Shown in pieces: positions 688-20,826 of a stretch of DNA of 32,396 nucleotides. Position 1 is the first letter of the stretch. Each line of letters begins with the position of its first letter. This DNA is from a virus, in the IMG/VR virus record IMGVR_UViG_3300009173_000050, positions 1 to 32,396 of that record. One strand, given 5' to 3'. The notes under the pieces were generated by a model. It made no database searches. It was not told the origin of the DNA and worked only from the letters and a program-made list of their open reading frames with translations. The translations under genes and the position numbers were made by a program.

Positions 688-932
688 TACGCAATCCTCT
701 TCCAGAATGTATACGCTTGAGAACCCAATGAAGCTAACACTGTTAATCCTGTATATTGATTAGAATAAATTCCGGTGTATTGATTACTATAAATTCCAAG
801 ATAAAACATACTATAAAATCCTTCAAACCCTTGTGAATAAAATCCTTCAAACCCTTGTGAATATATTCCTTGATACCCTTGAGAATAGATCCCTTCATAT
901 TGATTGGAATAAAAACCTGCATATTGGTTTCA
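687..932 (-). other. in-frame continuation of the repeat fibre gene after TGA
   Basis: After TGA (930-932) the frame runs for 80 sense codons to TAA (687-689). It first continues the same octapeptides (such as NQYAG, FYSNQYEG, IYSQGYQG, IYSNQYTG) and then ends in a unique tail, GLTVLASLGSQAYTFWKRIA. The TGA stands where the repeat calls for Ser (Tyr-[Ser]-Asn-Gln-Tyr); TCA to TGA is one substitution. The repeat unit at the break is also four residues short, which suggests repeat recombination. This is either a nonsense mutation, a base-call error or readthrough. The next gene starts on this distal stop, which supports the longer frame as the ancestral one. Confidence 0.8.
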
Positions 933-1377
933 ATACTGTCCTGAATAAATCCCAGAATATGTGCCCGAAAATATTCCTTCAAATGTACCTGAATAAATTC
1001 CTGAATATGTCCCGGAATAAGTACCGGTGTATGCAGGACCTTCAGATGAACCTCGAGGATTAGGTGATTCGCCACCGGACCCATAAGTATGTATGTAAGA
1101 CCCTTCATAATCACCGCGGTAATCACCCATAAACGGTCCGATATATGCACCTACATATCCACCTTGATAACCACCTTGATATCCACCAGAATAACCTTGA
1201 GAATAAAATCCTTCAAAACCACGTGAATATAATCCCGTAAATTGTCCCGAATATATGCCAGTAAATTGTCCTGAATAAATCCCCGCAAATTGTCCTGAAT
1301 ATAATCCTTCATATTGATTGGAATATGTTCCTTCATATCCAGCTGAATATATTCCTTCATATCCTTGAGAATATATT
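745..1377 (-). repeat. tandem 24-bp coding repeats (octapeptide [ILF]YSxx[YF]xG)
   Basis: Degenerate 24-bp units encode about 17 to 19 copies of Y-S-x-[GQ]-[YF]-x-G, with runs of near-identical units around 1230-1300 (IYSGQFTG) and 835-880 (FYSQGFEG). A GGYQ-type variant and a Pro/Gly linker occupy about 1045-1195. The unit length is a multiple of three, so all frames on this strand stay open and produce spurious ORFs. The array could change length by slippage or unequal recombination. Confidence 0.85.
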
Positions 1378-2153
1378 ACATCACCTGTATCTGTTAAATA
1401 ATCTGTATATCCACCTACTTGGGTCCATGTACCGGTTCCAGGTGCAGAGGAGCCTGATACTATTTGATAATGGCCAATAGATTCAACATTAAATAGATAA
1501 TTTCTCCATTCTGCGGCTAATGTTTTAATCTCAGCATCAGACATTTCTTGAACACCATCATTGCCAGTTCTATTAAAAACCGGTCTTGAACCTGAGGTAG
1601 CATTTGGGGCTGTTTTTCTCCATAACTTAAAATCAGTTGAACTATCGGCTCCGGCTTGTCTATAAGTTTCTGCTAAAACATCCCCGCAATAAATCCATGT
1701 ATCTGAATCGGGAGCTGCAGTTCCAAAATAATATCCACCAACAGGATAAGTAGTTGATTTCCAATGAGTGGCAACTCTAGCTAAAATGGTAGTTTGTAAA
1801 TCAGAAGTATTCATTTGTTGTAATTTACCACCAGAAGTAATCCATTTGGTGGGATAAATTACATTAGTTAAACCGGCAGCATTAGATTGTTCTTGCTGAA
1901 TAGACCATGTTGTTGTAGAAAAATTGACTGCAGAAATAGGATGCTCACCTACATCATCATTACGAAGCCTATTATCGAGAGTGCCAGCATTGCCAGAATT
2001 ATTTGCATATGCAGTTGCATTCCCGCGTACATTATACGTCTGATTAGATGCGAACTCCTGCAAAACAAGAGGGACAATCATACTGTCTATTTCTGCACTG
2101 GTCATCTCTTTGAGAGCAGTCCCAGAATTTATTACCTTTAACGGTGATGCCAT
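930..2153 (-). CDS. fibre-like protein with Tyr/Gly octapeptide repeats, ended by an in-frame TGA
   Basis: This encodes 407 aa from ATG 2153. Residues 1-250 are non-repetitive. They include the VGEHP module (62-88) shared with the next gene and three copies of a motif like LKEMTSAEI, LQQMNTSDL and VQEMSDAEI. From about residue 258 the protein becomes tandem octapeptides of the form [ILFT]-Y-S-x-[GQT]-[YF]-x-G, broken by a GGYQ-type stretch and a short Pro/Gly linker. The frame stops at TGA 930-932, but the same repeats continue in frame for 80 more codons to TAA 687-689. The natural product was probably 488 aa. Such repeats suit an extended or adhesive tail appendage. The family is recalled from marine T4-like phages and the exact role is unknown. 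Confidence 0.8.
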   Translation of the reverse strand: MASPLKVINSGTALKEMTSAEIDSMIVPLVLQEFASNQTYNVRGNATAYANNSGNAGTLDNRLRNDDVGEHPISAVNFSTTTWSIQQEQSNAAGLTNVIYPTKWITSGGKLQQMNTSDLQTTILARVATHWKSTTYPVGGYYFGTAAPDSDTWIYCGDVLAETYRQAGADSSTDFKLWRKTAPNATSGSRPVFNRTGNDGVQEMSDAEIKTLAAEWRNYLFNVESIGHYQIVSGSSAPGTGTWTQVGGYTDYLTDTGDVIYSQGYEGIYSAGYEGTYSNQYEGLYSGQFAGIYSGQFTGIYSGQFTGLYSRGFEGFYSQGYSGGYQGGYQGGYVGAYIGPFMGDYRGDYEGSYIHTYGSGGESPNPRGSSEGPAYTGTYSGTYSGIYSGTFEGIFSGTYSGIYSGQY

Positions 2154-3706: not shown

Positions 3707-3929
3707 CTTTATCCTTTTCTAAAACTTTCATTAATAATTTTTCTATATTATCCACAGTAGTTTTTAATCTATTAAATTCTGCCCTATGCACATCCATTTC
3801 TTTAGTAAATTTTTGTGAGGCCTGACGTGATAATCTATGTCTATTTAGGGCTTCTTTATCAGTGGCTAAAAGTGCCTTTGAATGTATGTCCCTAACAAAA
3901 CGTGGATCTTCGGTTTGTACTTTACTCAT
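3696..3929 (-). CDS. small conserved T4-like phage protein of unknown function
   Basis: This encodes 77 aa from ATG 3929. It overlaps the 3' end of the large DUF4815-type gene by 8 nt and the start of the following fibre gene by 11 nt, so it is embedded in the operon. The start contains EDPRFVRDIHSKALLATD, which I associate loosely with small ORFs in marine T4-like phages. Residues about 40-72 are charged with heptad-like Leu/Ile/Val spacing (RLKTTVDNIEKLLMKVLEK) and probably form a coiled coil. It could be an assembly factor or a small linker for the neighbouring fibre. No function can be assigned from sequence. Confidence 0.75.
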   Translation of the reverse strand: MSKVQTEDPRFVRDIHSKALLATDKEALNRHRLSRQASQKFTKEMDVHRAEFNRLKTTVDNIEKLLMKVLEKDKDGS

Positions 3930-6900
3930 CCAATGCTATTGCTCTTAAATCTTTCACTTTAGGAACTTTTAATGTACTAGAAGAAAGTAAACATAACTTA
4001 ATTGAAAATGTTTTAAATTTCTTATAATTAGTTCCGCTTTCATCTATATAATCAATTGAATCCCCAGGAGATTTATATGTAAACTCTTTATAATCTTCTT
4101 CGTTCAAAGAATGAACAGAAGCAGCCGTTTCTTGTGTTAATTGTATATAATCTCTATCATCAAATGATGATGGGTCATCTGGACTTAATACTTTTGCATA
4201 TACGTGTATTTTTGCAGTTTCTGGTTTATAAGCACTGATAACAACTTTTATATCTTCTGCTTCAAAACCATCTTCAAGATTAACTTTTCTTGTAATATAT
4301 TTAGCGTTAATAGGGCCACCTTGTGGATCTAATTCACTACTAATAACAACATTTGCGTAGTTACTGCCGGTGTGTCCCGAATCTGTTATTACTACTGTTG
4401 GGGTTGCTGTATATCCAGACCCTCCATCAGTAATTGTTGTTCCAGTAATTAATCCTGCGGCAACTGATAAAGACATTGTGGCGCCTGTACCATTCCCCCC
4501 AGAAATAGTCGCAACCGCTGAAGATGTATAACTTGACCCTGCATTAACTATATATACCTGTGCATTTGCAATGGCGGCGTTATCAACATCATTTTCAATG
4601 GTTGTTAAACTAAATCTTGAAAGATCAATCATCGGAGAAACAAATTTTGAAGTAGAACGAATTGTAATATGAGCACTAAAACAATTTGCTGTATTGGCTT
4701 TCATTATCATTCGTTCATCAAGATAAACATTTTTATCTCTTTCACCCGTCACATAATTTGTTGATGAATATCCTCCAGCCGTATTAGTAGTCTTATATGC
4801 AAAACCAACTGTTGAACTATCAAATTGCATTAATGATGAATTAAATTTATAAGCATCAGAATAAACATTAGTTGTGGCTGCTGATTGACTAGATGAATTA
4901 GACATCAAGATTATATTACCTTCATTTATTGTTGTAAAATGACATCTATTAACTCTCATCATTAACGATTCGCCTGGAGATGACTGTGGCATTCCTGCAT
5001 TAGTTGGTAAATATAATGTTTCAATATTTGGTTGTTTCGGTATTCTGATATTGGGACTAATCGATGTCGTGCTCAATGGACTCAATCCTTGTATTGCTGT
5101 CCATAACTGATATTCAGAACTATTTGAAATAATAACTAATCCATACTCATCGCCTGGTAAATATATTGGCGCTGGAAATTCAAATGTAGTATAATGAGAT
5201 GCATTTGCCGAATCCGGAGCAGTTAAAACAGTATTAATTTCTTCAGGTCTCATCGCAACTTCTGCATTTGGAATAATGATGCCGGAACTTGGATAACCAT
5301 TAATCATTGGTCTAATTTGTAGTGTTACAGTTAATTGCGGTGTCGAGCTATTAGCAGTTGCTTTTTGTCTAAACCATAAATCTACCGATTTAATAAAAGC
5401 CCCTTCTGGAAAATTACTCTTATTAACTAAAAATGTCTGAGTCATGGGATCCATCCATCCTGATGATCCTTCAACTCTATTAATAGGGCTAGATATTACA
5501 TTTTCATTAGTTACATCTTCTCTTCGTGAAGTAGACGGCCTTGTTGAAACTGAAGAAGGTTCTCTACCATCTACCATTCCTCTTACATGAAAAGTACATT
5601 CTGCGGCCATAGTAGAACTTGCAACTACATCAGATGCATGATCTGTAACCCTTAATAATCTTTCACCTGACTTATGAGCACTACCTGGCAAAGAAAGAAT
5701 ACCCGCAAATTCCCCGGCTTGATTCGTAGCCATATAATCTGCTTGACCTTTTGTTGGAACAGTTCTATTTGATATAACCCCTGATACTCCACTATTTGAA
5801 GTAAGAATAGTTGTTGACCCTGGTGAAAAACTTTGATCTATATCGGCATTGTCACCATTTTGATCTACTGCTTTAATTACTTTAATATATGCTGTCGCGG
5901 TTCCACCTGAAGTAGTTAATTTTGGTAATATAATTTGTGCAACGTTTGAACCTTCAGATATTGTTTCACCTAATTTTAAATGATCTGTTATTGTAACACC
6001 ATTAAGTGTTACAAAAGGCATTGGATAAACATTAGCTGTTACATTATCACCATCAAAAAATATGTAAACATTTGTTGCAGGCTTTAATCCCTTAGCTACA
6101 AAATAAATTCTTTGATCATCTGGAGCATATTGTGAATTAAGCTCATGAGCCTTCATCCAGAAAGTCATAGAAATATCTGTAACCTTATTACCAAGTGATC
6201 TTTTAATTGAATCTGGAATATTTTTTGAAGTTATACCTTTTCGTGTTTGTCCTTGTGAAATAAGATTTGCTTTTCTTATTCCGCTAGAAGTAGAACCGGC
6301 ATCTTTAACACTTATTTCTGGTTCTGGATTGATTTGTTCACCATGCCAATTCTTGGTCCAGTTATCCCACTGTGATCCATGACCACCCCTATATGCACCA
6401 AATTGCCAGTTATCATTTACACCTTCTATATTAACTAATACTTCAGGTCTTGTATTAGTATCAAACCATAAATCAGAATCCGGATATGTTTTAACAGCAC
6501 CAGAAAATTGAGCCAAGGCAAATGGATTAATTGCTTTATAAGTACTTGCTAAAGGTTGATTAACCAAATTAGCAGATGTAAAAGGCAATGTTACTAATTC
6601 TTTCCCAGGTAAATGCCAAGAAACATTATTACTAGATCCGTCTGTCATATGAAAAGAATAATTATCTGTTTTAAACGGAGCTCTTAATTCATTTCTTTCT
6701 ATATCAATTGAACATCTATAATCATTATTAATTACATCACCAACTGAATGTCCTTTAAATCCATCTACTAAAATTCCATTTTTAAATCTATCGCCGGCAG
6801 GATTGAAAAGTGAATCTTGTGTTGATCCGCCAGAAATAGAAGAAGAAACGGTAGAAGATTCCAACATTGATAATGCAGTATAATATTCTAAATTTTCGAT

Positions 6901-9900
6901 TCTTTTTTCTAATTTACCAATATCTCTCATTGTATAACGTCTATTGTCAATATACTTTGTTTTAACATCATCCGTACTAAAAGTATATGGAGGAATAGTT
7001 AACGTATACAATGTCATGGAATCATCATCATCCGGAGGTGAAATTGGTTCTAATGCCGGGATTCCTTTAAGTACTTTAAATTTCTTATCTTTAGATAAAA
7101 CTAATTTATCTTTACGACCCAAATAATATTGTGTGTTAAATTGTAATGTATATTCCGGATCCGGTGTTCCGCCAGCAGAACCTAACTGCGAAGATGGAAT
7201 TGCTTCGTTATTAGATGTTATATCATTTGTCGTGTTAGAACCTTTATCGTTATTCGCTGAATAACGTGTAGGTCTAAAATCTATACAATCCCTTAATTGT
7301 ATTTCTTGGCCAGTTGTGGGACTTGTATATTTTGGAATAGCAGAAAAGTTAAACCCTTTTCTCTTAACACCATCTAATCCATAATGATATCCGGTATTTG
7401 AACTTACGTCAGCATATGATGCAATTGAAAAGTAGCCTGCGGTAGCATCTTGAATTGGAGGTGTCAGAGCCGGATTACTAAAATGATCAACAATTGCTAA
7501 TATTTGTCCTGTGGGAGAAGCACTTCCAGGTTTTAATGTAATGGAAGACCAATCATAATAATTATCTCGTTGTCCGTTATCTAAATCATAATTACTAGTA
7601 ATATCTTTAGCAGTTGTTGAAGTCACATCTCTAAGTGCAGTTAACATTGCTGAACTTACGGGTGCTGCAGGATCTCCGGAATCAATTATATATGCCAAAT
7701 TAACAACATCAGAAATCATTAAATTATCTTTTTTCCCGGCAACTTTATTAGGAGTAGCAAAATGTACTTGTCCTTTAGATATATCTGAATTAGAAGACAA
7801 GCTGGTTGTATTTCCAACTGTTAATGTTTTAGATCTTGGTGAAGCATTTGCTGTTCTAATAGTTGAAGTTACTTCAACTTGATATGCTCCATTCTTTGAA
7901 TTTAAATTTACTGTTGTTTGAGTAGCACTATCAATAGTTGCTGTTCTACCTGTAGCATTATCAAAATTTAATATCTGACCTGCGGTTAATTCATCACCTG
8001 ATACATTATCAATAGGTGGATTAGACGCGTCATCAATTGTTTTTATGGTTATTGTATATAATTCTTTTGCTGTTGATGCTGGTTGTGCTCCAGATCCTAT
8101 AAAGGTACCTGCACTAGTTGATACAGTAGTCGTGCCTGCAATCGGTACAGAAACTACTTGAACTGTTTTAAATGTATAAGTAAGCCCATCAGGTATAGTG
8201 GCCAAAGGTGAAAATGGTAATTGAAATAATAGTGTATTTTTACTTACCCCAGATAATAGAGCTGTTCCCTCAGGATCATTATTAAATTTTGATAACTTAT
8301 CAATATCTGCTCGTGTTGTTTTTACAACATGGGTAGTATTAGCGGCATTTAATTGATCAACAGCTGAATGTTTTACAATTAATGATCCTAAATCTTGAAA
8401 TTTAAAAGAAATAGAAAATGATGAATTTGATAATACCTTTTGCGATAGAGCAGTATTGGCTTTAATGGTATGTTGTGAACCTATAGCAATATATTCCGCA
8501 ACAGTAACTGTATCACTTGAAACAGTAGAGCCGTTTGTGGTATTAACAGTTAATGTAGCACCCTTATATGCATTATTTGCATAAGATGTAATAGTAGCCG
8601 GCACACCTATAGTTGTTAAGTCATCACCTTCACCAGACACCTCTCCAGTGATGGTTTGATCTAAACGTATATCATATATTCGTGAAGAATATACAGAATG
8701 ATAATGTGAAGTATTAGATGAAGATAAATCTGCTTGTTCCCAATCAAACGATCTTACTCTAGCTGTTCCCATTCTCGTTTGATTGTATTTTGTTAATGCA
8801 TTAGTATCGTTGCTCATAGCATTAACAGACGCGGAAGGACAACAATGCAAATCTACAAGTTCATGTTTAGATATATCAAAAGCACCTAAAACATTTTTAA
8901 GATATAAGGAATTACCATAATCTGATGCAATAATATAATCTGATACATTTGCAGTATCACGACCTCTTTCTACATCAATATATTGTGTTGCAATACTTTC
9001 ATATTCATAACCTTTTACATATGCTTTTCCTGCTTCTAATCCTACTGAAAGTAAAGCAGTATTACCTTTTTTATGAGATTTTAATTGAATTCCAAATGGC
9101 CGTACTGTATACGAACCCGACTCATCATATGTTCTCCGTGCTAATGTTTTTTCAAGTTCACCATACATTGGGAATTTAGTTTCGGAAACCTTTACACCAT
9201 CTTCCATCCTAACTAATTCTATAAATTTTTCCCCAGCAAATTCTGTAATAGTACTAGAAGTCTTTGTAATAGTTCCATCTGTGGCAACTACTTGAGTTAC
9301 AATATCTAGAGATGATAACGTCAAAAGCATTTTAAATCTGTCAGCACCAGGTGCAGCATAATTAGCAGTACCCTGTGCATTATCTAAAATAGACGAGTCA
9401 TCATCTGTTTGAACAATAGATTCTGCTACTGTTAATCCAATTCTTTTGGTTGGGAAATTACTATACTTATCTAAAGCAACAGTTTGCGCAAGAACTATAA
9501 CAAAATACCCACTTACATAAAAGCATCCTTCTGTAATGCTTGCAAGAGAAGCTGTATTTTGAGCATATGCTACACCAGAAGCCCCACTTAAACTGACTGT
9601 ATTAGCTTGTATTGGTGTTGTTTCTAAAGTGGCAATTGTTTCACCATCTAGAAAATTTCCCCCACCCAATTTAGAAAAAATTAATGTGGGTTGATCTGTT
9701 ACAGTAACACCTTCGGCTTGAATAACTAAACCCTTTGCCCCCGATGTTCCACCTGTGATGGTTTTTCCTGCAAATGAATTTACCGTAACAGTGGCGCTAT
9801 CAAATGCGGATTCTAACTTTAAAGAATTAACTTGTGTATTGAGTGTTACATCTCCGCCGAAAACTTTACTGCCTTCTTTGAAGATATGATCACCAAACCT

Positions 9901-10053
9901 GGTAACTTGCTCCTGCAAAATAGTTTGCATTTGAGTAAGTTCTCTTGCTTGAACAGCAAAACCAGGTCTAAATAAAATTCTATGAAAGTTTTTATCCTTA
10001 TCAAAATCATCATAGTATGGTGCAATATTAAAATTTGTTTTTACGCCTGACAC
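3922..10053 (-). CDS. large baseplate-periphery structural protein (DUF4815-type)
   Basis: This encodes 2043 aa. The start is GTG at 10053 (GTG TCA GGC); an AG-rich AAAGAGA precedes it, and no ATG gives the conserved N-terminus. Residues 4-60 (NFNIAPYYDDFDKDKNFHRI, then RPGFAVQARELTQMQ) match the start I know from DUF4815 proteins of T4-like cyanophages. Residues about 1035-1060 (NRRYTMRDIGKLEKRIENLE) form a short coiled coil typical of the family. A later domain runs from SGWMDPMTQTFLVNKSNFPEG to a WTAIQG stretch. Near the C-terminus is a Gly-rich beta module (GSSYTSSAVATISGG, GGSGYTATPTVVITD), then DIKVVISAYKPETAKIHVYAKV. Following gp8, it takes the place of T4 gp9-gp11/gp10 and probably links wedge and fibres; that role is inferred. 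Confidence 0.85.
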   Translation of the reverse strand: MSGVKTNFNIAPYYDDFDKDKNFHRILFRPGFAVQARELTQMQTILQEQVTRFGDHIFKEGSKVFGGDVTLNTQVNSLKLESAFDSATVTVNSFAGKTITGGTSGAKGLVIQAEGVTVTDQPTLIFSKLGGGNFLDGETIATLETTPIQANTVSLSGASGVAYAQNTASLASITEGCFYVSGYFVIVLAQTVALDKYSNFPTKRIGLTVAESIVQTDDDSSILDNAQGTANYAAPGADRFKMLLTLSSLDIVTQVVATDGTITKTSSTITEFAGEKFIELVRMEDGVKVSETKFPMYGELEKTLARRTYDESGSYTVRPFGIQLKSHKKGNTALLSVGLEAGKAYVKGYEYESIATQYIDVERGRDTANVSDYIIASDYGNSLYLKNVLGAFDISKHELVDLHCCPSASVNAMSNDTNALTKYNQTRMGTARVRSFDWEQADLSSSNTSHYHSVYSSRIYDIRLDQTITGEVSGEGDDLTTIGVPATITSYANNAYKGATLTVNTTNGSTVSSDTVTVAEYIAIGSQHTIKANTALSQKVLSNSSFSISFKFQDLGSLIVKHSAVDQLNAANTTHVVKTTRADIDKLSKFNNDPEGTALLSGVSKNTLLFQLPFSPLATIPDGLTYTFKTVQVVSVPIAGTTTVSTSAGTFIGSGAQPASTAKELYTITIKTIDDASNPPIDNVSGDELTAGQILNFDNATGRTATIDSATQTTVNLNSKNGAYQVEVTSTIRTANASPRSKTLTVGNTTSLSSNSDISKGQVHFATPNKVAGKKDNLMISDVVNLAYIIDSGDPAAPVSSAMLTALRDVTSTTAKDITSNYDLDNGQRDNYYDWSSITLKPGSASPTGQILAIVDHFSNPALTPPIQDATAGYFSIASYADVSSNTGYHYGLDGVKRKGFNFSAIPKYTSPTTGQEIQLRDCIDFRPTRYSANNDKGSNTTNDITSNNEAIPSSQLGSAGGTPDPEYTLQFNTQYYLGRKDKLVLSKDKKFKVLKGIPALEPISPPDDDDSMTLYTLTIPPYTFSTDDVKTKYIDNRRYTMRDIGKLEKRIENLEYYTALSMLESSTVSSSISGGSTQDSLFNPAGDRFKNGILVDGFKGHSVGDVINNDYRCSIDIERNELRAPFKTDNYSFHMTDGSSNNVSWHLPGKELVTLPFTSANLVNQPLASTYKAINPFALAQFSGAVKTYPDSDLWFDTNTRPEVLVNIEGVNDNWQFGAYRGGHGSQWDNWTKNWHGEQINPEPEISVKDAGSTSSGIRKANLISQGQTRKGITSKNIPDSIKRSLGNKVTDISMTFWMKAHELNSQYAPDDQRIYFVAKGLKPATNVYIFFDGDNVTANVYPMPFVTLNGVTITDHLKLGETISEGSNVAQIILPKLTTSGGTATAYIKVIKAVDQNGDNADIDQSFSPGSTTILTSNSGVSGVISNRTVPTKGQADYMATNQAGEFAGILSLPGSAHKSGERLLRVTDHASDVVASSTMAAECTFHVRGMVDGREPSSVSTRPSTSRREDVTNENVISSPINRVEGSSGWMDPMTQTFLVNKSNFPEGAFIKSVDLWFRQKATANSSTPQLTVTLQIRPMINGYPSSGIIIPNAEVAMRPEEINTVLTAPDSANASHYTTFEFPAPIYLPGDEYGLVIISNSSEYQLWTAIQGLSPLSTTSISPNIRIPKQPNIETLYLPTNAGMPQSSPGESLMMRVNRCHFTTINEGNIILMSNSSSQSAATTNVYSDAYKFNSSLMQFDSSTVGFAYKTTNTAGGYSSTNYVTGERDKNVYLDERMIMKANTANCFSAHITIRSTSKFVSPMIDLSRFSLTTIENDVDNAAIANAQVYIVNAGSSYTSSAVATISGGNGTGATMSLSVAAGLITGTTITDGGSGYTATPTVVITDSGHTGSNYANVVISSELDPQGGPINAKYITRKVNLEDGFEAEDIKVVISAYKPETAKIHVYAKVLSPDDPSSFDDRDYIQLTQETAASVHSLNEEDYKEFTYKSPGDSIDYIDESGTNYKKFKTFSIKLCLLSSSTLKVPKVKDLRAIALDE

Positions 10054-10076: not shown

Positions 10077-11804
10077 TTAGAAGTTAATTATCAACTTAAC
10101 ATCTTCAATTTGGTCACTCGCTCTTGAAATTGGTGATCTATTTTCAACATATAAAATATCACCAGTATATTGTTTTAAGTCAGGTCCTTCAATAGCACTT
10201 GTATTAGAAGTAGTTGCACCGCCGACTACAGTTAAAGCTTCGTTACCTTGAAAAGAACCTGGTGTTGCGTCCCAACCATTCGAAGCATTTGAACCTTTAG
10301 TAACTTGAGACATTCTCAACTTACTTGTACCTGAAGTCCAATCAACCACTCTTCCAGTTGCACCTGATACTGAGCCTGTTACCAGTTGATCAGCAGCATA
10401 TGCCGATCCAGAAAAGGATTGTACTGTAACTCTAAGTGCTTGGTCAGCCAATGAAATTGTCGCTGGTGTCCCAAGATCAATATCATTTTGAGTATTAGCA
10501 GCATTTGGATGTGAAATTAAACCAATTTTTCTGAAGTCATTGGCAACGGTAAATTCACCAGACTCGTCATTTTCAAGTCTTACATTAACCATAACATTAT
10601 AACCACCTAATTCTTCAGTTGAATCAAATCCATGTCCACCTTTTGGTTCGATAACAGCCTGAACTGTTGCGTCATCTGTGTTCCAAGAAGTATTTGCTAA
10701 AACATTAACAACAGCGTTTGTGTATCCTGAACCCGCGGCTATTGTTACAACATCAGTTAAACCTGAAGTATTGGTACCATTTGCTCTACAATTCGCAGAA
10801 GCACCGTCACCTAAGATTTGTAATCTAGGCGCGATTTGAAAACTATCACTTTGTGCAGCCGCAGACGAAACAGCAGGTGCGAAAGTAATAACTTTTGTAG
10901 AACCAACATAATCTGTAATAGTTCCGCCTTGTCCTTCAGCGTTGCCGGATGTAAAGAAAATATCTGAACCAATATAGATATTATCTGCAGCACTAGCGGT
11001 ACTGTGAATACGGACAGAAGTAGTCGTATGTGAATATGCACTTCCAAAACCATTATCTAATGTGTTTGTTTCAAAAATTAAATATTCTGCTCCACCAACG
11101 GTGCCATTAGCTGTTTTTCTATAGATATTAATTGCACCATCTACAGCTCCGTTCTCAACAGCTCTCTGTAAGGTGTTTTCCTGTGTGGCCGAAGCCATAA
11201 TAGTATTTTGATAACGTACTTGTTGTACTGGAATATAGTTGGTTGTTACAAATTTCAGAGCTGATGCTGCAGAAATTGTAAACATATATTTCCATTTATA
11301 ACCATCAGAACCTGGGGTAACAATAGTTGTTGCTTGACCAATTGGTTTTGCTAAACTATTACCACCACTATTATTGTTTGCTAAACACTTATAAACATTA
11401 TATTCATCTGTCAGGACATAAAAAGAATTTGCAAGCATAGTATTTTCAGTATTATTATAAGCGAAATACGATGTGTTGTTTGCCCAATTATATCTAGGAA
11501 TACAATGTGTTACATCAGTAGATACAACTTTTTTAGCTGCAATCATATCTTTCCAATGATTATAATAAGTATTTGAAACAGAATCGGTGGGTGTAGGAGG
11601 TACTGTGTCTGTATCTGCCGCCGCGGCTCCTGCTACATTAGCCCAGTTCTGGACACCACCGATAAAAAGATACATATTAGATTCTAAGTATGTATCGCCC
11701 GCGACTGTGTTCGCAAAAGTAGTCATTCCGCTGTCTTCGTCAAAAGACTCCCGGAACTGCTTTGCATTGAACATTCTAAATTTATTTGTTACTAAAGCCG
11801 GCAT
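10077..11804 (-). CDS. gp8: baseplate wedge subunit gp8-like
   Basis: This encodes 575 aa from ATG 11804, preceded by GGAG about 11 nt upstream. T4 gp8 is 334 aa and forms the dimer that ties gp7, gp6 and gp10 together in the wedge. Diagnostic features are the N-terminus (FRMFNAKQFRESF), residues about 145-180 (FYVLTDEYNVYKCLANN followed by DGYKWKYMFTI), and the C-terminal block about 380-430 with GGHGFDSTEELGG then ANDFRKIGLISHP. The extra length comes from Gly/Thr-rich beta insertions. The next gene starts 23 nt downstream and the gp7-like gene ends 29 nt upstream, so it sits in the usual gp6-gp7-gp8 order. Identification rests on motif memory and synteny. Confidence 0.88.
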   Translation of the reverse strand: MPALVTNKFRMFNAKQFRESFDEDSGMTTFANTVAGDTYLESNMYLFIGGVQNWANVAGAAAADTDTVPPTPTDSVSNTYYNHWKDMIAAKKVVSTDVTHCIPRYNWANNTSYFAYNNTENTMLANSFYVLTDEYNVYKCLANNNSGGNSLAKPIGQATTIVTPGSDGYKWKYMFTISAASALKFVTTNYIPVQQVRYQNTIMASATQENTLQRAVENGAVDGAINIYRKTANGTVGGAEYLIFETNTLDNGFGSAYSHTTTSVRIHSTASAADNIYIGSDIFFTSGNAEGQGGTITDYVGSTKVITFAPAVSSAAAQSDSFQIAPRLQILGDGASANCRANGTNTSGLTDVVTIAAGSGYTNAVVNVLANTSWNTDDATVQAVIEPKGGHGFDSTEELGGYNVMVNVRLENDESGEFTVANDFRKIGLISHPNAANTQNDIDLGTPATISLADQALRVTVQSFSGSAYAADQLVTGSVSGATGRVVDWTSGTSKLRMSQVTKGSNASNGWDATPGSFQGNEALTVVGGATTSNTSAIEGPDLKQYTGDILYVENRSPISRASDQIEDVKLIINF

Positions 11805-11833: not shown

Positions 11834-14800
11834 TTACTCTAAAACTACATGTTGAGCAACGCCATCAATTCGTCCTTCCGGGAAGTATTTATTGGCTCGC
11901 TCGTGAACGTTAAACGTTTGTGATGTATAATTGCCCACAATGTATTTAGCGTCAAATTTACTGTAAATATTCATTCGTTTATAATTACTACCAGTATTTA
12001 TAAGGTCTTCGTATAAGAGAAAATCATTCTCGATTTTCAACTTACCCATAGTGGATGCTGCGGTGCTTGTACCGTCTTCCACTAACAATTCATCACCATC
12101 TTCGAGAAGCATTCCGTCTTCTTCTTCTAATATAATATTTATATCATCAAATAGTATAGTCGACCCGGAAACAATATTTTCTACCGGTGTCGGATTCTGT
12201 AAGAGGGTTAGTCCTAAGCCTAGGCCCGCGTATTCTCCAACTTCGTCATATTCGTACATATCACCAACGCGCGGAACTGTTGAAACTGGACAATATGTTC
12301 TCCATGGCCAGCTGTACTTGACTTTATCCCAAGTTGGCGAATATGTGCCATGAACAGGTGTATTCGCTGTTATTAATAATGTTTGCTCTGTCCCTTGTTG
12401 TCCGCCAAGTGTTTTTCCAATTATATTAAGTGGATGATTACTATAAGCCACATTTAATTTTACAGAAGCATCTCTATAATCAACATAAAGTGTTGTATTA
12501 GTTGCCCATGTAAAAGATGTTTCTGTACCTTGGAAGAAAGTTGCCATTTCAAGTGTTTGGTGTTTTGTTACTACTTCTGCCCAATTACCCGACAAACAAT
12601 CTTCTTTTACAACACCAAGTAAGGAATGGACACTATCTAGTTGTGGTTTAGCTGTACCATTTACTTCACAAAATACTTTTTGAACTTTTCCATTAGACAT
12701 CAAACCTACTACATTTCCTTGAACCAAATCTTCATGAGCCTGATAAACATGTAATTTCCATTGTGGAAAAGACAATTCTAATTGATTTTGAGTTGAAGCA
12801 CGTCCTAATTTAATTCTGTCCAAACTATCTGCAGAAGTTATTGTACGGGCCGTAGCAGTAATCCATCTTTCTATTCCTTCGTCTGGACTAGCACTGTAGT
12901 TAGGATAGTATTCTTCTCCAGGACTTAAATCATAAACTCTTTCCGATATAGAATCTGTATCTCTAACTTCAACAAATTCACCAACCGCTCCATCTTGTTC
13001 CACTATCCCTAACAATGAATGAACATAATTAATTCTTGGAAAACAAACACTTGCTGTTTGATAAACTTGTTGTATTGTTCCATCTGTTCTCAATCCTACA
13101 ACTTGTCCAGCCCATACTTTTGCAACTGCTACTTCAAATAAATTATCTGTCCGTAGTGGATTATTTAGCCTTTTATCTTTAGGTCTTGCATAAGATTGTC
13201 CATATTCAAAGGTTCGCTGTCTATAAGTTCCTGTTACATCGGTATCTGGTGTATTTACAACTGCAGGTGTTCGAACTTGCATTAAATCAGTATCGCGAAC
13301 TACTACTTTATCTTCCGTTTTTATTGGGCCGGCCATATCAGAATGATTATCACAATATGCAAATAACACATCTTCTGCAACTCCTGTCCCTGTTGAATAT
13401 TCGTAAGTTTTAACGATATAATCTGGAATTTTAAAATCTACATATGATCCACCAACACCAGGAGTGCCCACAGCGGTGGAAGGAAATTCCATACTTGATA
13501 CCCAACTTGCATTATGGTCCCCATCAAGCACACTAGCAAATCTTAATGGATGCCCGGAATTTGAACTATCTTCTTGCCAAAAACGATATGTAACACCTTT
13601 AATAAGGTTTCTTGTCCATGCACTATTATTAATATTTACACCATCAAAAAGAAAATCAGTACTTGCAACTGTTACTGTTATTTCCCGTGATGCAGAATTC
13701 GGATATTCTATTACAGCTCTTGAAATAACTCTTTGGTTAAACATTTCTATTGGCAGAAACATTTCTGCATCAATATATGTTGTAACGCCTGTTAAGTTTG
13801 GTAATGAGGCAGTTGCCATTCTTATAGGTAAAGTAGGTTCTTTCCACGAAATTACCGAAATAGTAGCATCACCAATTAATTCAATTTCTTCTTGACCATA
13901 AGTTACATATGTTGAAATTGTAGGCATTACAAATTGGCCATCTGGCGAACGATACTTACCTAATATACCTATCTCTAACCAATAATCTGTGCCTCCTTTA
14001 CGTGCATTCGGATTACTTCCCATTCCCCACGCAGTATCTGGTGGTCTTTGTGCTCCTGCGGTTGCACCCGCGGCACTTGCCGTATGCAGTGGGCCCCATC
14101 TATTTTCTGTATTATAGTGAGTTGACTTACCCCATTCGGAAACTCCGCCAAATGCGCTGTGGCCTGTACATTCATTTCCTTCAAAGTGTCCCGGCCTTAC
14201 ATATTCTGCGATTACATTTGGATACCATGGAGCGATTTTTTCACTAGTATTAAGAATTGCCATATCATGTTCTGGGAAATGGTGAGGTATTTCTACTCTT
14301 CCTGATTCCAGTCCAGTATATGGAGCATTTGGGTCATGTTGTCCAGCATCTGGAGCATTATTGAGCGTTCCGCGGAAGTACTTTTCATAATCCCACCCTT
14401 GACCATTTAACCAAGCAGTTGAATCGCTTCGTCCAAGGTGAAATGCAAACTTTTTATCGTCTGTTGTAACTCCAAATCCTATTGTTCGCGGATCCAAAAA
14501 TTCAATATGATAATTATGTAAGATTGACACATCGAAATTAATTAACCCATCCACACTATCATGTGGCATCATGGTTCGATTATATCCCATTCTCATATCT
14601 TTATCAATTGGCCCATATTTCGCAACATATGATGGCGTTCTATCAATAAACAACTCCAAAATCTTATTTGTTACAGATTCTGCTTCAATGGTCATGCCTA
14701 TAATAAATTCAATGCCTATTTCTCCAAATACGTTCCATCCAGCAGGGTGAACAAAAGATCTTACCATATCTCTAAATTCACTAATTTGAATATCAGATCT

Positions 14801-17800
14801 TAAAACATATGAAAAATCTTGATAATAATAAGAATCTTGTATTCTAATAATATCGCTGATCATTCCCAATTTGGATTTAAATGTACCGGGATAATTAGTT
14901 ATAGTAGTTCGTTTAGCAGAAAAAGTCGCGTTATTATCACCTGTAGGTGCAGTAACTATAGGAATAGTAGTATAGTTTATGCCTGCTTGTGAAATTACAA
15001 GAGATTTAATAGCACCAGTTTTTAAGGCCCCAGATTTTAATACAGCATTATTACCATAATTTGCAACTGATTCATATGACTTAACATTTGATGATGCAAG
15101 ATTAGCCGTTCTTGTTCCGGAAAGTGATATCACCTTTTCCCCAGCAGTAAAATCAGTCTGCGGTTCCAGTATCATAAATTTTTCTGGTTCATCTGCAGTA
15201 TTAAATCCTTCGTATTCAATTTTTCCACGTGATGTAATATCAACAATTTCCATTTTATCCACATGCAAATCATATGTAGTAGAAATTGTTGTATTAACAT
15301 ATAAAAATAATGAATGATATGAATCAGTAGGATGAACAGTAAATTTACCTTCATATGTATAAACTTGGTCTTTATTAGTAGTAGCAACATCTTTATAAAT
15401 TTTTATTTGTGTTAGGCCTACTGTTGGACCGCTAGATTCAAAATTTACATCTACAGCCGCACTACCATATTTTAAAATAACATTATTTAAAACCTTGCTA
15501 GCTCTAAAACTTACTCTTCCAATATATTGATCACCTGGTTTTAATAAACCTTCATAAGCCTCACCTGTGTTATTATTTAAACCTTTAAGTCCAACATATG
15601 TTTCTAATTGATCATTAACAGCAATTTTACCGCTATATGAACCATATATTGTATTTGAAGATTCAATAGAAAGAGCATTATTACCTGTATCAAGTGCTGA
15701 ATTCGCCCAAGATGCATTACCATTTGTTACTATTGTAACCGCGCCTCCTACAGGTATCCCTGCTCGTTTAGTTGAAAAAGAATAAAGTCCAGATGTATTA
15801 TTTTCAAATGTTCCAATGCTATTTAAAAGAACATTTTCATCTTCAAGAGAAAATTGTGTATCTACTTCTTTTACCTTCATTGTACTAAAAGTAGAATTTG
15901 CAGTAGAATTAACAATTGGTTGTATTACTTGTACTTTTTTACCTGAAGATTGGCCTATAATATATTCACCAAATTTAAATTTTCCCCCTGCTAAACCAAT
16001 ATCTTCACTAAAATTTAAATATGCTAATGCTGCAGTATTTTTTCCTGTAATTGGGTCTTCAAATTCATATGATTTTTTTCCTAAAATAGTTTGATTAGAT
16101 GCTTCATATGATGGCCCCTTTATATAATCAATACCAGTAGTTATAACTTGCACATTAGAAATAGCACCGAATGGTGTAAAAGTATATTCTGTTGCTCCGT
16201 AATAACTATCAATGGAATAAGTATTATCCCCTAATTGATTTCCTTCTATTTCATAATAGCTAGCTGGTTTAATTGAAGAGACTTGAAACATACTTGATTT
16301 ACCAGGAACTGCTGTGGTATTTGCACTATAATATAAATCTCCATAACTATTTTGAACAAAATTTGCTGATATGTCACTTTCTATTACATAAACAAAACAT
16401 GAAGAGTTTATTGAGGGCCCGGCAATCGTTGCCTTGGTTCCTGTTTTAGAATCATATATGTAAAACCCTGGTTGAATATCATCTTCAAAATTCTTTGTAG
16501 CTAAAAGAATATTATCACCAGCGTCTACATAATTTCCTGGATTATCTGCATCTGTACCATTAAATATAATCCTACCATCACCTTCTTCAAGTAAGATATT
16601 TGCGCCGCCGTCTTCTGTATCTTGATTTATTACTTCAGCTACCCAAGTAGTTGTATTACTTGAACTAAAATGGGTATTAATATTTTCAGGGTATCTTACA
16701 TCGCCGGGATCATCAACAGAAAATGAAAATGCATTTAAAGAAATTGCGGAAGAAGATAATCCGCCACCAGCAGTTGAAATTACTTTATTAATTACCGAAT
16801 TTGAAGTTCTAAATTTTCCTGTTTCAAGAACTCCACGAATAGCACCGGTGTGATTAGTCCCTAAAGTTCCGGCACTATTAACTATCAACATCTCACCACC
16901 CATATAGCCATTACCACCATCATCAACGATAATTTCATCAATGGCGCCATTAGCAGTTGCATTTACACGTGCGACAGCACCTTTTCCGGCTCCGCCTGTA
17001 ATTACAAGTTCATCGTTAACTTTATAAGCTGTACCATTACTTACAATATCAATTTCACCAATAACCGCAATACAAGTTCCTCTTGAAGAAGCCTCCGGAA
17101 ATGTCATTGCTTTAACAACATCAGAAGAATTATCACTACCCATAAGTTCGTCTATAGTTGATGCAGTAACGTCAACATATGCGTCAAGTGTGGCTATTAT
17201 TTCACCAGGTTGAAAATCAGAATATATATCAAAACGAGCATCATATCCTTTAACATAATCTGTCAAATATAATTCTGTTACCGCGGTCGATCCTTCAACA
17301 TAAGAAATAGAATTATCAATTGTTGCTGTAGCTTGAGAAAGTTCCCCTTTAATAACTTTACTATTAAAATCATCAGGATTTAGGGCAGTACCTGTATAAA
17401 TTTTAACTGACTGAGCTGAACTCCATGTTCCATCAGAAGGTCTTAATAATCTTTCTTTTGGATATATAAAACTTAATTGATCGGAACCATATACTGTTCT
17501 CCATAACCATAGAAAAGAATCTTCTGTACCCCTACTTCTATAAATGCTTCTTGCAGTTTTAATTGCTTGTCGTAAATCACCAACCGCACTAAAAGGAATA
17601 TTTTGTAAAAAGTCTTCCCTAAATTGTTGTAACATGTAATTATCTGCAGCATCTACATCAGTCATTAAATCTATGTCAGCTGCTCCACGAAGAGGATTTC
17701 TCAACAAGTCTTTATCTGTTTTTCCTACAGTCGCTTTGGCTCGAGTTGAAGTGCCTCTAACAGATTCACCATGTATTAAAACTATTCCATTAATGGGTCG

Positions 17801-18514
17801 TGCAAATAATAAATGGGGGCTTAAATTATACTTCGGCGAAGTTGTATTTGCTGTTTCCAAATATTTTCCTGCCGGGTAATTCTTTGCTTGAACACCAGTT
17901 ACTAAACATTTGGATCCTGATTTGGAACCTACGATTACTTCACCAATAGCGAATGTAGCATCAGTTCCTCTTTCTGATTCAATTATAATTTCAGTATTAG
18001 CTAATCCAGACTCGGGGGAGTCTTCTTTTACAACTCTAGAAGCGGCAGTATATTTTGTATAAGAAGATGAAGGAGGATCCTTTATTGCTATACCGTAATT
18101 ACCACCATTTGCACCACCTTTTCTGGGCATATAAAATATAAGACCTTTTAATTCTTCCAATTCTAATTCATAAACTGTTTCACCATCATCGGTGGCGGCT
18201 AGCGCCGGGCCCTTATTTCCATAAACAGGATAAAAGTGTCCGAACTTCATTCCTGCTTCGGTAGATTCTGCATCGTCTGAAGGGTCATAAATAAAATTTC
18301 TTTGATCTAAGGCGGTTCCTTCAACATAATATGACAAGTCATCATCTTCTTGGACAATATTATATTCATCTAATTCTAAATCAGTATATTCTATTTGATA
18401 AGATTCCAAAAATTCAAAATACTTTGTCATGAAAAGAGGAAGATTACTCCCCTCTTCAGTAAAGAAAGAAGGTAATTGATTTTGAATTATTTCAGATATT
18501 CTATTGTCAGCCAT
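11834..18514 (-). CDS. gp7: giant baseplate wedge protein gp7-like with extra C-terminal domains
   Basis: This encodes 2226 aa from ATG 18514, coupled to gp6 by TAATG. T4 gp7 is 1032 aa. The gp7-type core spans roughly 1-1260. It contains an N-terminal segment (QNQLPSFFTEEGSNLPLFMT), RSIYRSRGTEDSFLWLWRTV followed by YPKERLLRPSDGTW near 325-365, and YQDFSYVLRSDIQ then SFVHPAGWNVFGE near 1225-1260. The remaining 960 residues are unusual. First comes a His/Trp/Tyr-rich block (about 1290-1530). A cupredoxin-like domain follows (about 1610-1730; H1655, C1721, H1724, M1727). Next are two homologous repeats of about 50 aa (VHSLLGIVEQDG and VHSLLGVVKEDC). An acidic LLEDG-like stretch (ILEEEDGMLLEDGDELLVED) lies near 2130. 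It probably scaffolds the wedge and presents extra domains on the baseplate surface. Confidence 0.85.
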   Translation of the reverse strand: MADNRISEIIQNQLPSFFTEEGSNLPLFMTKYFEFLESYQIEYTDLELDEYNIVQEDDDLSYYVEGTALDQRNFIYDPSDDAESTEAGMKFGHFYPVYGNKGPALAATDDGETVYELELEELKGLIFYMPRKGGANGGNYGIAIKDPPSSSYTKYTAASRVVKEDSPESGLANTEIIIESERGTDATFAIGEVIVGSKSGSKCLVTGVQAKNYPAGKYLETANTTSPKYNLSPHLLFARPINGIVLIHGESVRGTSTRAKATVGKTDKDLLRNPLRGAADIDLMTDVDAADNYMLQQFREDFLQNIPFSAVGDLRQAIKTARSIYRSRGTEDSFLWLWRTVYGSDQLSFIYPKERLLRPSDGTWSSAQSVKIYTGTALNPDDFNSKVIKGELSQATATIDNSISYVEGSTAVTELYLTDYVKGYDARFDIYSDFQPGEIIATLDAYVDVTASTIDELMGSDNSSDVVKAMTFPEASSRGTCIAVIGEIDIVSNGTAYKVNDELVITGGAGKGAVARVNATANGAIDEIIVDDGGNGYMGGEMLIVNSAGTLGTNHTGAIRGVLETGKFRTSNSVINKVISTAGGGLSSSAISLNAFSFSVDDPGDVRYPENINTHFSSSNTTTWVAEVINQDTEDGGANILLEEGDGRIIFNGTDADNPGNYVDAGDNILLATKNFEDDIQPGFYIYDSKTGTKATIAGPSINSSCFVYVIESDISANFVQNSYGDLYYSANTTAVPGKSSMFQVSSIKPASYYEIEGNQLGDNTYSIDSYYGATEYTFTPFGAISNVQVITTGIDYIKGPSYEASNQTILGKKSYEFEDPITGKNTAALAYLNFSEDIGLAGGKFKFGEYIIGQSSGKKVQVIQPIVNSTANSTFSTMKVKEVDTQFSLEDENVLLNSIGTFENNTSGLYSFSTKRAGIPVGGAVTIVTNGNASWANSALDTGNNALSIESSNTIYGSYSGKIAVNDQLETYVGLKGLNNNTGEAYEGLLKPGDQYIGRVSFRASKVLNNVILKYGSAAVDVNFESSGPTVGLTQIKIYKDVATTNKDQVYTYEGKFTVHPTDSYHSLFLYVNTTISTTYDLHVDKMEIVDITSRGKIEYEGFNTADEPEKFMILEPQTDFTAGEKVISLSGTRTANLASSNVKSYESVANYGNNAVLKSGALKTGAIKSLVISQAGINYTTIPIVTAPTGDNNATFSAKRTTITNYPGTFKSKLGMISDIIRIQDSYYYQDFSYVLRSDIQISEFRDMVRSFVHPAGWNVFGEIGIEFIIGMTIEAESVTNKILELFIDRTPSYVAKYGPIDKDMRMGYNRTMMPHDSVDGLINFDVSILHNYHIEFLDPRTIGFGVTTDDKKFAFHLGRSDSTAWLNGQGWDYEKYFRGTLNNAPDAGQHDPNAPYTGLESGRVEIPHHFPEHDMAILNTSEKIAPWYPNVIAEYVRPGHFEGNECTGHSAFGGVSEWGKSTHYNTENRWGPLHTASAAGATAGAQRPPDTAWGMGSNPNARKGGTDYWLEIGILGKYRSPDGQFVMPTISTYVTYGQEEIELIGDATISVISWKEPTLPIRMATASLPNLTGVTTYIDAEMFLPIEMFNQRVISRAVIEYPNSASREITVTVASTDFLFDGVNINNSAWTRNLIKGVTYRFWQEDSSNSGHPLRFASVLDGDHNASWVSSMEFPSTAVGTPGVGGSYVDFKIPDYIVKTYEYSTGTGVAEDVLFAYCDNHSDMAGPIKTEDKVVVRDTDLMQVRTPAVVNTPDTDVTGTYRQRTFEYGQSYARPKDKRLNNPLRTDNLFEVAVAKVWAGQVVGLRTDGTIQQVYQTASVCFPRINYVHSLLGIVEQDGAVGEFVEVRDTDSISERVYDLSPGEEYYPNYSASPDEGIERWITATARTITSADSLDRIKLGRASTQNQLELSFPQWKLHVYQAHEDLVQGNVVGLMSNGKVQKVFCEVNGTAKPQLDSVHSLLGVVKEDCLSGNWAEVVTKHQTLEMATFFQGTETSFTWATNTTLYVDYRDASVKLNVAYSNHPLNIIGKTLGGQQGTEQTLLITANTPVHGTYSPTWDKVKYSWPWRTYCPVSTVPRVGDMYEYDEVGEYAGLGLGLTLLQNPTPVENIVSGSTILFDDINIILEEEDGMLLEDGDELLVEDGTSTAASTMGKLKIENDFLLYEDLINTGSNYKRMNIYSKFDAKYIVGNYTSQTFNVHERANKYFPEGRIDGVAQHVVLE

Positions 18515-20400
18515 TATGCAGTATTAGCTCCATAAACTACTTGTGCGGGAATCTCATCAGAAGTTGCAATCTTAAAGTCACCGGTGAGTAATGAAGTATC
18601 AGAAATCATATTAACTGTAACATCTTTCTTTTCAACAATAATAACTTGTTCTCTTATAGGAGTTATATCTAAAACGTTGGTTTGTACATATACTTCAATT
18701 GTATTATTATTTACAACAGCTTCAACCGTTATGGGTTTAAATGCTACCAAGGTCATTTTACCAGTAGTATAATCTAATGTTCCAACATTTGAATTAATAA
18801 TAGCTACTTCACCGGCTGCTTCTTTTACAACTTGTATAGTTCCATCTTTATCAGCTAATGTACAAGCATTTTCTATAACTTCGGTTGCTTCATTAGTATA
18901 TTGAAATTTTGAAGATGTTAGTGTACCCTTATATCCAACATATGGATATTTTAATTGATTTGAAAAATTTTGTGCATAGTTAAATGCCTGTGCTAATTCT
19001 ACTACTACTCGTTTAAATAAAAGTACTGTTGTTTGGTTATTTAAAATAGCTGGATCAGTATTATCAATTATAGTAGTTAATCGAGAATATCTAAACCTTA
19101 AATCAAATTTTCCTAATTCATTTGAATTATAACCCAAAGTCACTCTAATAATATTTTCACCTATTTCTTGTGCGGATTGAATTGTTGCATTTGGATCATA
19201 TCTAACATCTGTCTTAATTTTTAAATAAAGATAATCAGGAGCAACAATTACCGGAGTAACAGAAACCATATTCTTTCTTAATAAAATATCATTTTTAATA
19301 GAAGCTTTATCTTTTGAGGTTAAATATAATCCGCTTTTAGGTTTTACTGCAATATATGCTTGTCCATATCTTGGAGGATCATTTTCTTCACCACCCCAAC
19401 ACGTTACGGATTCGGCATTAACCCATTCTTTTTCCACAACTCGTTTATAATCATTTAAGGTAACGCATCTATTTTGTGTTTCATATAATTTAGGTGCACC
19501 ATATTTTATTTGCGCTATTGTTTCTCTAGCGGCGCCACCATAACCTGCTGTTGTCGAGGTTACAGAAACATTTCCATACCCTCCTATTAGATCAATTGCG
19601 GTAAAAGCAGATGCCATATTTGTAACATCTCCATCGGAAATATTTGCTGACAAAATTACTTGACTTCCATCTGCTGGTCTAAAACCTACTTTATTATCTC
19701 CAAATTGAATTTCAAATTTACCATCAAATTCTTCATACAAAAAATATACTTTAGATAACGCTGTTACTTGGACAGTATCACTTACTTTACTATAAGTATC
19801 TATTATTGTAGCTGTTGGGGAAGCCTTTACTGTAACTGATAATGTTGTAACATCTGTAGTTGGATTTGGTAAAATAAATTTTTGTTCATGATTGGAATAA
19901 TCAACTGCGTACTTATGTGTTAATCTTATACCTTGGTTTAATTGTATATCTTTGACTGTGAATCTACCATCGGTTCCAATTATAGCATTATACGAATTCG
20001 CAGTCGTAAAAATATATTTGTTACCATCTATAACAGAAGAAAATCTTTTATCTTTTTCTACAACCATTGTGGTAGCAGTATCGCTTGGGGTAATATTCAA
20101 TGTAACAAATGCTTTTGTTCCTTGAACAGATCTGGGCGTATACCCCATTTGTTTTGCTTTTTGAACAACAGAATTTCTGAGTTCAGCTGTATCTAAAAAC
20201 ATTTCATTTGCTAGCATATTTAAATAAAATGAATTATAATAAGTATTATATGCTAGCATATCCATAATTACATCCAGTCCAGATCCACCGAAGTCAAAAT
20301 TTGCAAATTCACTTTGACTTTTCAAAAAGGCTATCATATTAGCCTTAATAGCCGGCATATCTAGTTCTGAAACATTTAATTTAGCTACATCTGTTGCCAT
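18514..20400 (-). CDS. gp6: baseplate wedge subunit gp6-like
   Basis: This encodes 628 aa from ATG 20400, starting 3 nt after the gp25 stop; T4 gp6 is 660 aa. gp6 is the core wedge protein that forms the continuous ring around the hub. Visible family features are the N-terminal segment (FDFGGSGLDVIMDMLAYNTY followed by ANEMFLDTAELRNSV) and the central block near residues 305-350 (APKLYETQNRCVTLNDYKR, then CWGGEENDPPRYGQAYIAVK). It belongs to the baseplate J-like fold family. The gene ends in TAATG with the gp7-like gene, so the two are translationally coupled. Identity is firm from motifs and the gp25-gp6-gp7-gp8 order. Confidence 0.93.
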   Translation of the reverse strand: MATDVAKLNVSELDMPAIKANMIAFLKSQSEFANFDFGGSGLDVIMDMLAYNTYYNSFYLNMLANEMFLDTAELRNSVVQKAKQMGYTPRSVQGTKAFVTLNITPSDTATTMVVEKDKRFSSVIDGNKYIFTTANSYNAIIGTDGRFTVKDIQLNQGIRLTHKYAVDYSNHEQKFILPNPTTDVTTLSVTVKASPTATIIDTYSKVSDTVQVTALSKVYFLYEEFDGKFEIQFGDNKVGFRPADGSQVILSANISDGDVTNMASAFTAIDLIGGYGNVSVTSTTAGYGGAARETIAQIKYGAPKLYETQNRCVTLNDYKRVVEKEWVNAESVTCWGGEENDPPRYGQAYIAVKPKSGLYLTSKDKASIKNDILLRKNMVSVTPVIVAPDYLYLKIKTDVRYDPNATIQSAQEIGENIIRVTLGYNSNELGKFDLRFRYSRLTTIIDNTDPAILNNQTTVLLFKRVVVELAQAFNYAQNFSNQLKYPYVGYKGTLTSSKFQYTNEATEVIENACTLADKDGTIQVVKEAAGEVAIINSNVGTLDYTTGKMTLVAFKPITVEAVVNNNTIEVYVQTNVLDITPIREQVIIVEKKDVTVNMISDTSLLTGDFKIATSDEIPAQVVYGANTA

Positions 20401-20403
20401 TCT

Positions 20404-20826
20404 TTACCTATACAAAAAAGTTTCGAATTCTTCCGAAGTCATTTGTCCTAACAGTGTAAAAATAACCTGTATTCTATATCTGTTACGATCTTCTTCTGAT
20501 ATTACTATTATGTCTCTTATAGTAGCACGGGGTTCTAATATTCTTAATGCATCCGCAATTTTTTGTACTACTCGTGTTTCTGTTATCCCGTTCATTGGTT
20601 CAAATAATAAGTCTTGAATACCGGCACCAATTTCGGGATGGCCTAAACGTTCATTTTCCCTTGTTTGAAGAATATTACGCATGGATTGTTTTATAACAGA
20701 GGCATTTCTTGTTTTAACAATATCACCTGTTACCGGATGAACTTTAAAAGAAATATCTACATCAGAATATATTGTTTGTTGCGTATCCGGATCATATTCT
20801 ATTTCAGTGTATGTTGTTTGGGCCAT
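20404..20826 (-). CDS. gp25: baseplate wedge subunit gp25 (gpW/gp25 family)
   Basis: This encodes 140 aa from ATG 20826, against about 132 aa in T4. gp25 is the small lysozyme-like-fold protein that joins the gp6 ring to the hub and starts sheath assembly. The family signature is clear at residues 40-78: RNASVIKQSMRNILQTRENE, then LGHPEIGAGIQDLLFEPM. The start is supported by AAGGAA 7 nt upstream. An exact TATAAATA box ends 20 nt upstream of the ATG, so this gene may head its own late transcript within the operon. gp6 follows after a 3-nt gap. Confidence 0.95.
   Translation of the reverse strand: MAQTTYTEIEYDPDTQQTIYSDVDISFKVHPVTGDIVKTRNASVIKQSMRNILQTRENERLGHPEIGAGIQDLLFEPMNGITETRVVQKIADALRILEPRATIRDIIVISEEDRNRYRIQVIFTLLGQMTSEEFETFLYR

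Follow-up and report, generated by a model that had tools for sequence, protein, structure and literature searches.

A cupredoxin-like domain with a type-1-like ligand set in a gp7-like phage baseplate protein, and its relatives in marine phages and bacteria

A gp7-like baseplate wedge protein of 2226 amino acids contains an internal domain that is predicted to fold as a cupredoxin and that carries four residues arranged like the ligands of a type-1 copper site. The domain is a widespread marine module, not special to this protein. Taken together, the evidence is best read as pointing to a cupredoxin module whose type-1-like site is real but which is dispensable in this gp7. The window analysed here is the whole of the 32,396-nt record IMGVR_UViG_3300009173_000050 (positions 1 to 32,396).

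The carrier protein and its baseplate gene cluster

The carrier gene lies between gp6 and gp8 in a T4-type baseplate cluster with the following members:

3922-10053: DUF4815 protein of the T4-type baseplate cluster
10077-11804: gp8, from Pfam
11834..18514, minus strand: carrier ORF, gp7-like baseplate wedge protein of 2226 aa, from its translation, PHROG and its neighbours
18514-20400: gp6, from Pfam
20404-20826: gp25, T4-type baseplate cluster
20854-24264, minus strand: 1136-aa protein, encoded between gp25 and the gp5-type gene
24423-26456: gp5-type OB protein, T4-type baseplate cluster
26456-28288: tail protein of the same T4-type baseplate cluster
28297-28854: gp53, from the PHROG/Pfam scan of the window

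The gp7-like label follows from the gene order 25-6-7-8 combined with matches of the 2226-aa protein to PHROG baseplate wedge families (phrog_17744, E = 1e-24; phrog_2885, E = 1e-17), which support the assignment. The Pfam Baseplate_wedge family (PF23786) scored 24.4 bits against a cut-off of 27 and covered residues 1224-1265 only. Gene order and PHROG matches are also what the protein shares with T4 gp7, whereas its length and, presumably, the inserted cupredoxin domain set it apart; T4 gp7 has about 1032 residues. Judged via gp6, the nearest named relatives are Methylophilales phage Melnitz and the Pelagibacter phages HTVC008M and Mosig (36-37% identity), and IMG/VR contigs with orthologous genes reach up to 167 kb. 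The 1136-aa protein had no PHROGs or Pfam match at the thresholds used.

Predicted fold of the domain

The domain and its putative ligands map to the window as follows:

13313..13696, minus strand: cupredoxin domain, residues about 1607-1734, from the AlphaFold2 model with Foldseek and VIA-align matches
13550-13552, minus strand: H1655, putative copper ligand 1; H in 27 of 28 aligned rows, directly before model strand 51-54
13352-13354, minus strand: C1721, putative copper ligand 2; Cys in 27 of the 28 rows and a gap in the other, at the end of model strand 110-115
13343-13345, minus strand: H1724, putative copper ligand 3; His in 27 of the 28 rows, in the loop preceding the last strand
13334-13336, minus strand: M1727, putative axial copper ligand; Met in 26 of the 28 rows, with a single Tyr and a single Phe in the others

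An AlphaFold2 model of residues 1607-1734, built from a 41-row alignment of homologous domains, has a pLDDT of 85.1 and a pTM of 0.81. A model of the wider region (residues 1275-2226), built with six orthologues, gave values of 28.8 and 0.22, too low to draw on. The original prediction had proposed a cupredoxin-like fold, to be examined by structure prediction and superposition, and the fold is borne out: the predicted structure is a Greek-key β-sandwich that matches solved cupredoxins over most of the domain, with rusticyanin and auracyanin as the best superpositions.

Foldseek against the PDB returned nothing at E ≤ 0.001, the best match being rusticyanin (1a8z) at E = 8.4e-3 with a probability of 1.00. 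Among the 50 matches listed, 48 are named copper cupredoxin proteins, including rusticyanin, laccases, other multicopper oxidases, purple cupredoxin and a pseudoazurin with an engineered amicyanin loop; the other two are unnamed chains of respiratory supercomplexes, presumably subunit II. VIA-align placed rusticyanin (2cal) first (Z = 8.5, r.m.s.d. = 2.9, 101 aligned residues, spanning model residues 1-128), followed by auracyanin A (2aan; Z = 8.2, r.m.s.d. = 2.9, 100 aligned). Only two of 998 aligned chains reached a Z of 8, and the 50 matches listed are all entries for copper proteins or respiratory complexes. Going by the model, the window domain almost certainly has the cupredoxin fold.

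Despite their structural likeness, rusticyanin and auracyanin are only 12-15% identical to the window domain; their ligand loops are longer and both are soluble redox proteins. The CuA domain of cytochrome c oxidase subunit II belongs to the same fold family, as seen in the match to CoxB (4w9z, Z = 7.1), but differs from the window domain, which has one Cys.

A type-1-like ligand set

Translation of the minus-strand ORF places H1655, C1721, H1724 and M1727 exactly where the original prediction had them, with GVTYRF starting at residue 1640, GHPLRF at 1654 and CDNHSDM at 1721. In the model, C1721 ends the penultimate strand and is followed by a loop that holds H1724 and M1727, and H1655 sits directly before an inner strand, a placement typical of type-1 sites. 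Both sequence and strand placement thus show the type-1 pattern of a His before the central strand, a Cys, and a loop bearing a His and the axial residue. Translated in six frames, the window has two C-x2-H-x2-M motifs, of which the one outside the domain is broken by a stop codon; the spacing in the domain is amicyanin-like.

The spacing had been likened to type-1 or CuA sites, and only the first comparison stands. The H/C/H/M set is type-1-like, whereas CuA requires two Cys ligands in the loop and C1721 is the sole Cys of the domain. Judged from sequence, the ligand set is therefore of the type-1-like and not the CuA kind. A disulphide is rejected for the same reason.

Relationship to known copper protein families

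The window domain shares the cupredoxin fold with amicyanin, pseudoazurin and plastocyanin (PF00127), and, as amicyanin does, it has one His followed by C-x2-H-x2-M. It differs from these proteins in a long insert before the ligand loop (KTYEYSTGTGVAED), in a Pro directly after the first ligand His (classical cupredoxins usually have Asn there), and in being embedded in a virion protein rather than being a free exported electron carrier.

Neither Pfam nor NCBIfam assigned the window domain to a copper family, PF00127 (Copper-bind) giving no hit. Across 28 aligned domains, Pfam again found no copper family, four of them matching the At5g54830-like domain (best E = 0.014), and NCBIfam reported amicyanin in two of the 28, the best E of 0.053 being far below the cut-off of that family. 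Searches of PDB sequences gave little: three unrelated sequences with the window domain alone, two antibody chains only with the 41-row profile, and eight sequences with the 28-domain profile. One of these eight is a copper protein, pseudoazurin 3tu6, which aligns on C, H and M at E = 0.59 (whole sequence), a match too weak on its own.

A firmer link comes from bacterial relatives. When 10 hand-picked relatives were compared with PF00127, the two Woeseiaceae copies (L125 and L130) scored above its cut-off, at 24.6 and 25.2 bits against 21.2, and two others (L122 and L126) matched below it. The same Woeseiaceae copies match the 28-domain profile at 9.9e-22 and 3.4e-20. Because they pass Copper-bind and match the profile, the link between the phage domain and the plastocyanin/azurin family is one of sequence in addition to fold. 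The window domain thus appears to be related to PF00127 while lying outside its membership.

Conservation of the ligands across the family

The other 27 domains in the 28-row alignment are 23-92% identical to the window domain. By relative entropy, the four ligand columns rank 1-4 of 101, and as the most conserved columns they lead us to reject a chance motif. Outside the window orthologues, all four ligands are present in 22 of 22 rows of this alignment, from which incomplete copies had been dropped beforehand. It omits seven of 35 distinct segments. In six of these the motif is partly or wholly missing (L025, L027 and second copies in L018, L024, L026 and L030); the seventh is split but complete (L034). 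With the omitted segments included, our own count finds all four residues in 26 of the 35. In a larger set, 118 of 121 distinct full-length domains have the H and C-x2-H-x2-M, a figure biased by one search pattern that contained part of the motif, so that the 28-row alignment and the tblastn set are preferred here. Among named phages, at least one complete four-residue copy is found in 21 of 23 fetched loci, the exceptions being P-RSM6 (L025) and S-SZBM1 (L027).

In cyanophage proteins with the annotation gp7 or baseplate wedge subunit, a second, ligand-less copy adjoins an intact first one (L024:2002-2388, L026:2002-2388, L030:1477-1869), and the two could form a natural pair of metal-binding and structural versions. 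The gp9-type baseplate-fibre connectors of P-SSM7 and S-CAM22 (L026:26-349, L024:23-346) have a C-terminal copy of the domain with the four residues present. In S-BM3 (L034, ORF residues about 495-645), the domain is split: a long insert separates the first His from the Cys-His-Met loop, and the carrier protein is annotated as peptidase S8.

Decay and loss among orthologues of the gp7-like gene

The same gene is found at eleven IMG/VR loci, yielding five distinct domain sequences besides that of the window. The ligands are intact in three of the six distinct orthologous domains: those of the window, L004-L007 (one sequence) and L008. In L001 the Met is replaced by Tyr, though the domain is 92% identical to that of the window, and in L002/L003 it is replaced by Phe. 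The L009-L011 group has Tyr in place of H1655, lacks the Cys and has Thr in place of H1724, yet keeps the domain itself. Conservation of the H, C, H and M, which the original prediction had proposed to check, holds in the wider family but only partly among the orthologues.

Known type-1 sites in which other residues replace the axial Met can still bind copper. Accordingly, a clear inability to bind copper is confined to the L009 group.

One more orthologue, L149, shows 55% identity along most of its length and has no trace of the domain. The difference falls within one stretch:

13208..13774, minus strand: variable stretch between the anchors PNLTGVTTY and EYGQSYARPKD, 189 residues in the window and L001 and 56 in L149

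Because L149 lacks the domain and the L009 group lacks the ligands, the domain behaves as a cassette whose metal site is dispensable in some members. Since orthologues alter (Met to Tyr or Phe) or abolish the site but keep the domain, it seems to be the β-sandwich surface, not the metal, that is under continuous demand in the window lineage.

This pattern raises the alternative that the domain in this gp7 is a structural cupredoxin scaffold, a spacer or an adhesin, and that H/C/H/M is a relic of a copper-binding ancestor. Such a scaffold would accommodate the altered or lost ligands of three of six orthologous domains (H, C and H in one lineage) with the rest of the domain kept, the degenerate second copies in cyanophage gp7 proteins and the absence of the domain from L149. 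Yet the window copy is intact, the 22 rows outside the orthologues all retain residues that are the top four of 101 columns, and complete copies prevail in the named-phage loci, so that we consider a purely structural role rather unlikely. Metal binding by the window copy is, in our judgement, quite probable. With intact, Met-to-Tyr, Met-to-Phe, ligand-less and domain-less forms, this one orthologous gene offers a natural series in which the role of the metal can be tested directly.

Distribution of the domain in phages and bacteria

By tblastn, the domain was found in 56 of 50,697 phage records, all of them marine phages by name or listed host; 23 of these 56 were fetched for inspection of the ligands. 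With a second query, taken from phage S-B68, 70 records were found. Among viral structure models, 46 match the window model at E ≤ 0.001. They include tail fibre-like proteins from P-SSM2 and P-TIM68, the baseplate wedge tail fiber connector of S-RIM14 and a virion structural protein from S-TIM5.

When bacterial and archaeal species were searched with one genome for each, the domain was found at 21 loci. Several of these appear cellular from the length of their contigs, among them SAR86 (462 kb and 248 kb) and a Bacteroidetes single cell (1.06 Mb). One kind of bacterial carrier is a large protein rich in repeats, which in some cases (L125, L129, L130) begins like a lipoprotein; the large carriers are probably secreted or exposed at the surface. 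Proteins from Prochlorococcus and Burkholderiaceae (L133, L134, L135, L128) measure about 340-425 aa from stop to stop; the domain forms their N-terminal part, and the C-terminus presumably resembles DUF4214. Here the module is in cellular use.

In a tree of the domain (69 rows, 117 columns), few deep forks are resolved. The window orthologues form one clade (100/100) and the three cyanophage gp7 copies another (100/100), which fits the idea that gp7 proteins acquired the domain more than once. The starred branches force at least five changes between phage and cell labels. Some cell contigs may be viral contamination, and five are phage-like in appearance (L115, L117, L120, L131, L132); for this reason we claim no direction of transfer. 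Overall, fibre and baseplate proteins of marine phages share this mobile cassette with proteins of bacteria.

A candidate role for the domain

We lean towards an explanation in which a cupredoxin cassette, its site loaded outside the cytoplasm, uses copper to stabilize a displayed β-sandwich for host contact, and we hold it as a whole to be moderately likely. It builds on the sequence, the predicted fold, the family-wide conservation, and the presence or absence of the domain and the decay of its ligands among orthologues, from which we infer the steps of loading, display and function. Tail proteins assemble in the cytoplasm, and the site would probably be empty at that stage. It could then take up copper from seawater or from the host envelope, after lysis or on contact. 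Bound copper would lock or stiffen the ligand loop and so stabilize the β-sandwich, which may be displayed at the baseplate periphery and help that periphery to contact the host surface. In this way the module would favour stability or contact with the surface.

Known cupredoxins serve in cells as electron carriers and as domains of oxidases. Among open-licence full texts, we found no description of a cupredoxin as a virion part; databases may contain automatic annotations that label such proteins cupredoxin-like. PMC8115048 deals with a viral nitrite reductase, which is an auxiliary enzyme and not a virion domain. The nearest printed idea that we found is that of iron in tail fibres (PMC11705849), where HxH sites of T4 gp37 and of Alteromonas phage R22Y bind iron. 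As in the present case, a metal site is proposed in an adsorption protein, but those are octahedral His iron sites made of HxH motifs, whereas ours is a cupredoxin site within one domain.

This precedent invites a copper version of the Trojan horse, in which virion copper is recognized by, or exchanged with, a copper-handling surface protein of the host and so directs adsorption. The domain is common in marine phage tail fibre and baseplate proteins and an iron analogue is argued in PMC11705849, but no receptor is known, copper loading is putative, the site has decayed in orthologues, and bacterial proteins have the same domain without needing such a role. We find this proposal very doubtful, and a role in copper-guided adsorption improbable. 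Most improbable of all is a site for a metal other than copper (Zn or Fe), or one with a redox function instead of that of a copper holder. Sequence cannot tell the identity of a metal, and phage fibres bind iron via HxH (PMC11705849), but the Cys-His-His-Met set in a cupredoxin fold is the copper arrangement of the named structural matches, and the window domain has no HxH.

Returning to the stabilized cupredoxin cassette, the domain raises the possibility that copper is present in some virus particles. Were copper bound at the site, phages would count as metalloparticles in a new sense, and a class of marine phage proteins now called ‘hypothetical’ or ‘tail fibre’ would gain a fold and a testable chemistry. 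It is quite unlikely, though worth stating, that many marine phage virions are copper particles by virtue of a shared, horizontally moving type-1 module in baseplates and fibres that is loaded outside the cell and helps to recognize hosts; if true, this would be the copper counterpart of the iron Trojan-horse idea. As a bulk marine copper ligand the domain would be negligible, since about 1e10 viruses per litre times tens of sites would come to less than picomolar.

A repeat protein elsewhere in the window

A 407-aa protein without a PHROG or Pfam match is encoded near the start of the window (ORF 930..2153, minus strand). Its C-terminal part contains tandem 24-base repeats (930-1377) that encode a run of YSGxFxGxYSG / YxGxYxG units, and further 24-base repeats lie at 747-897.
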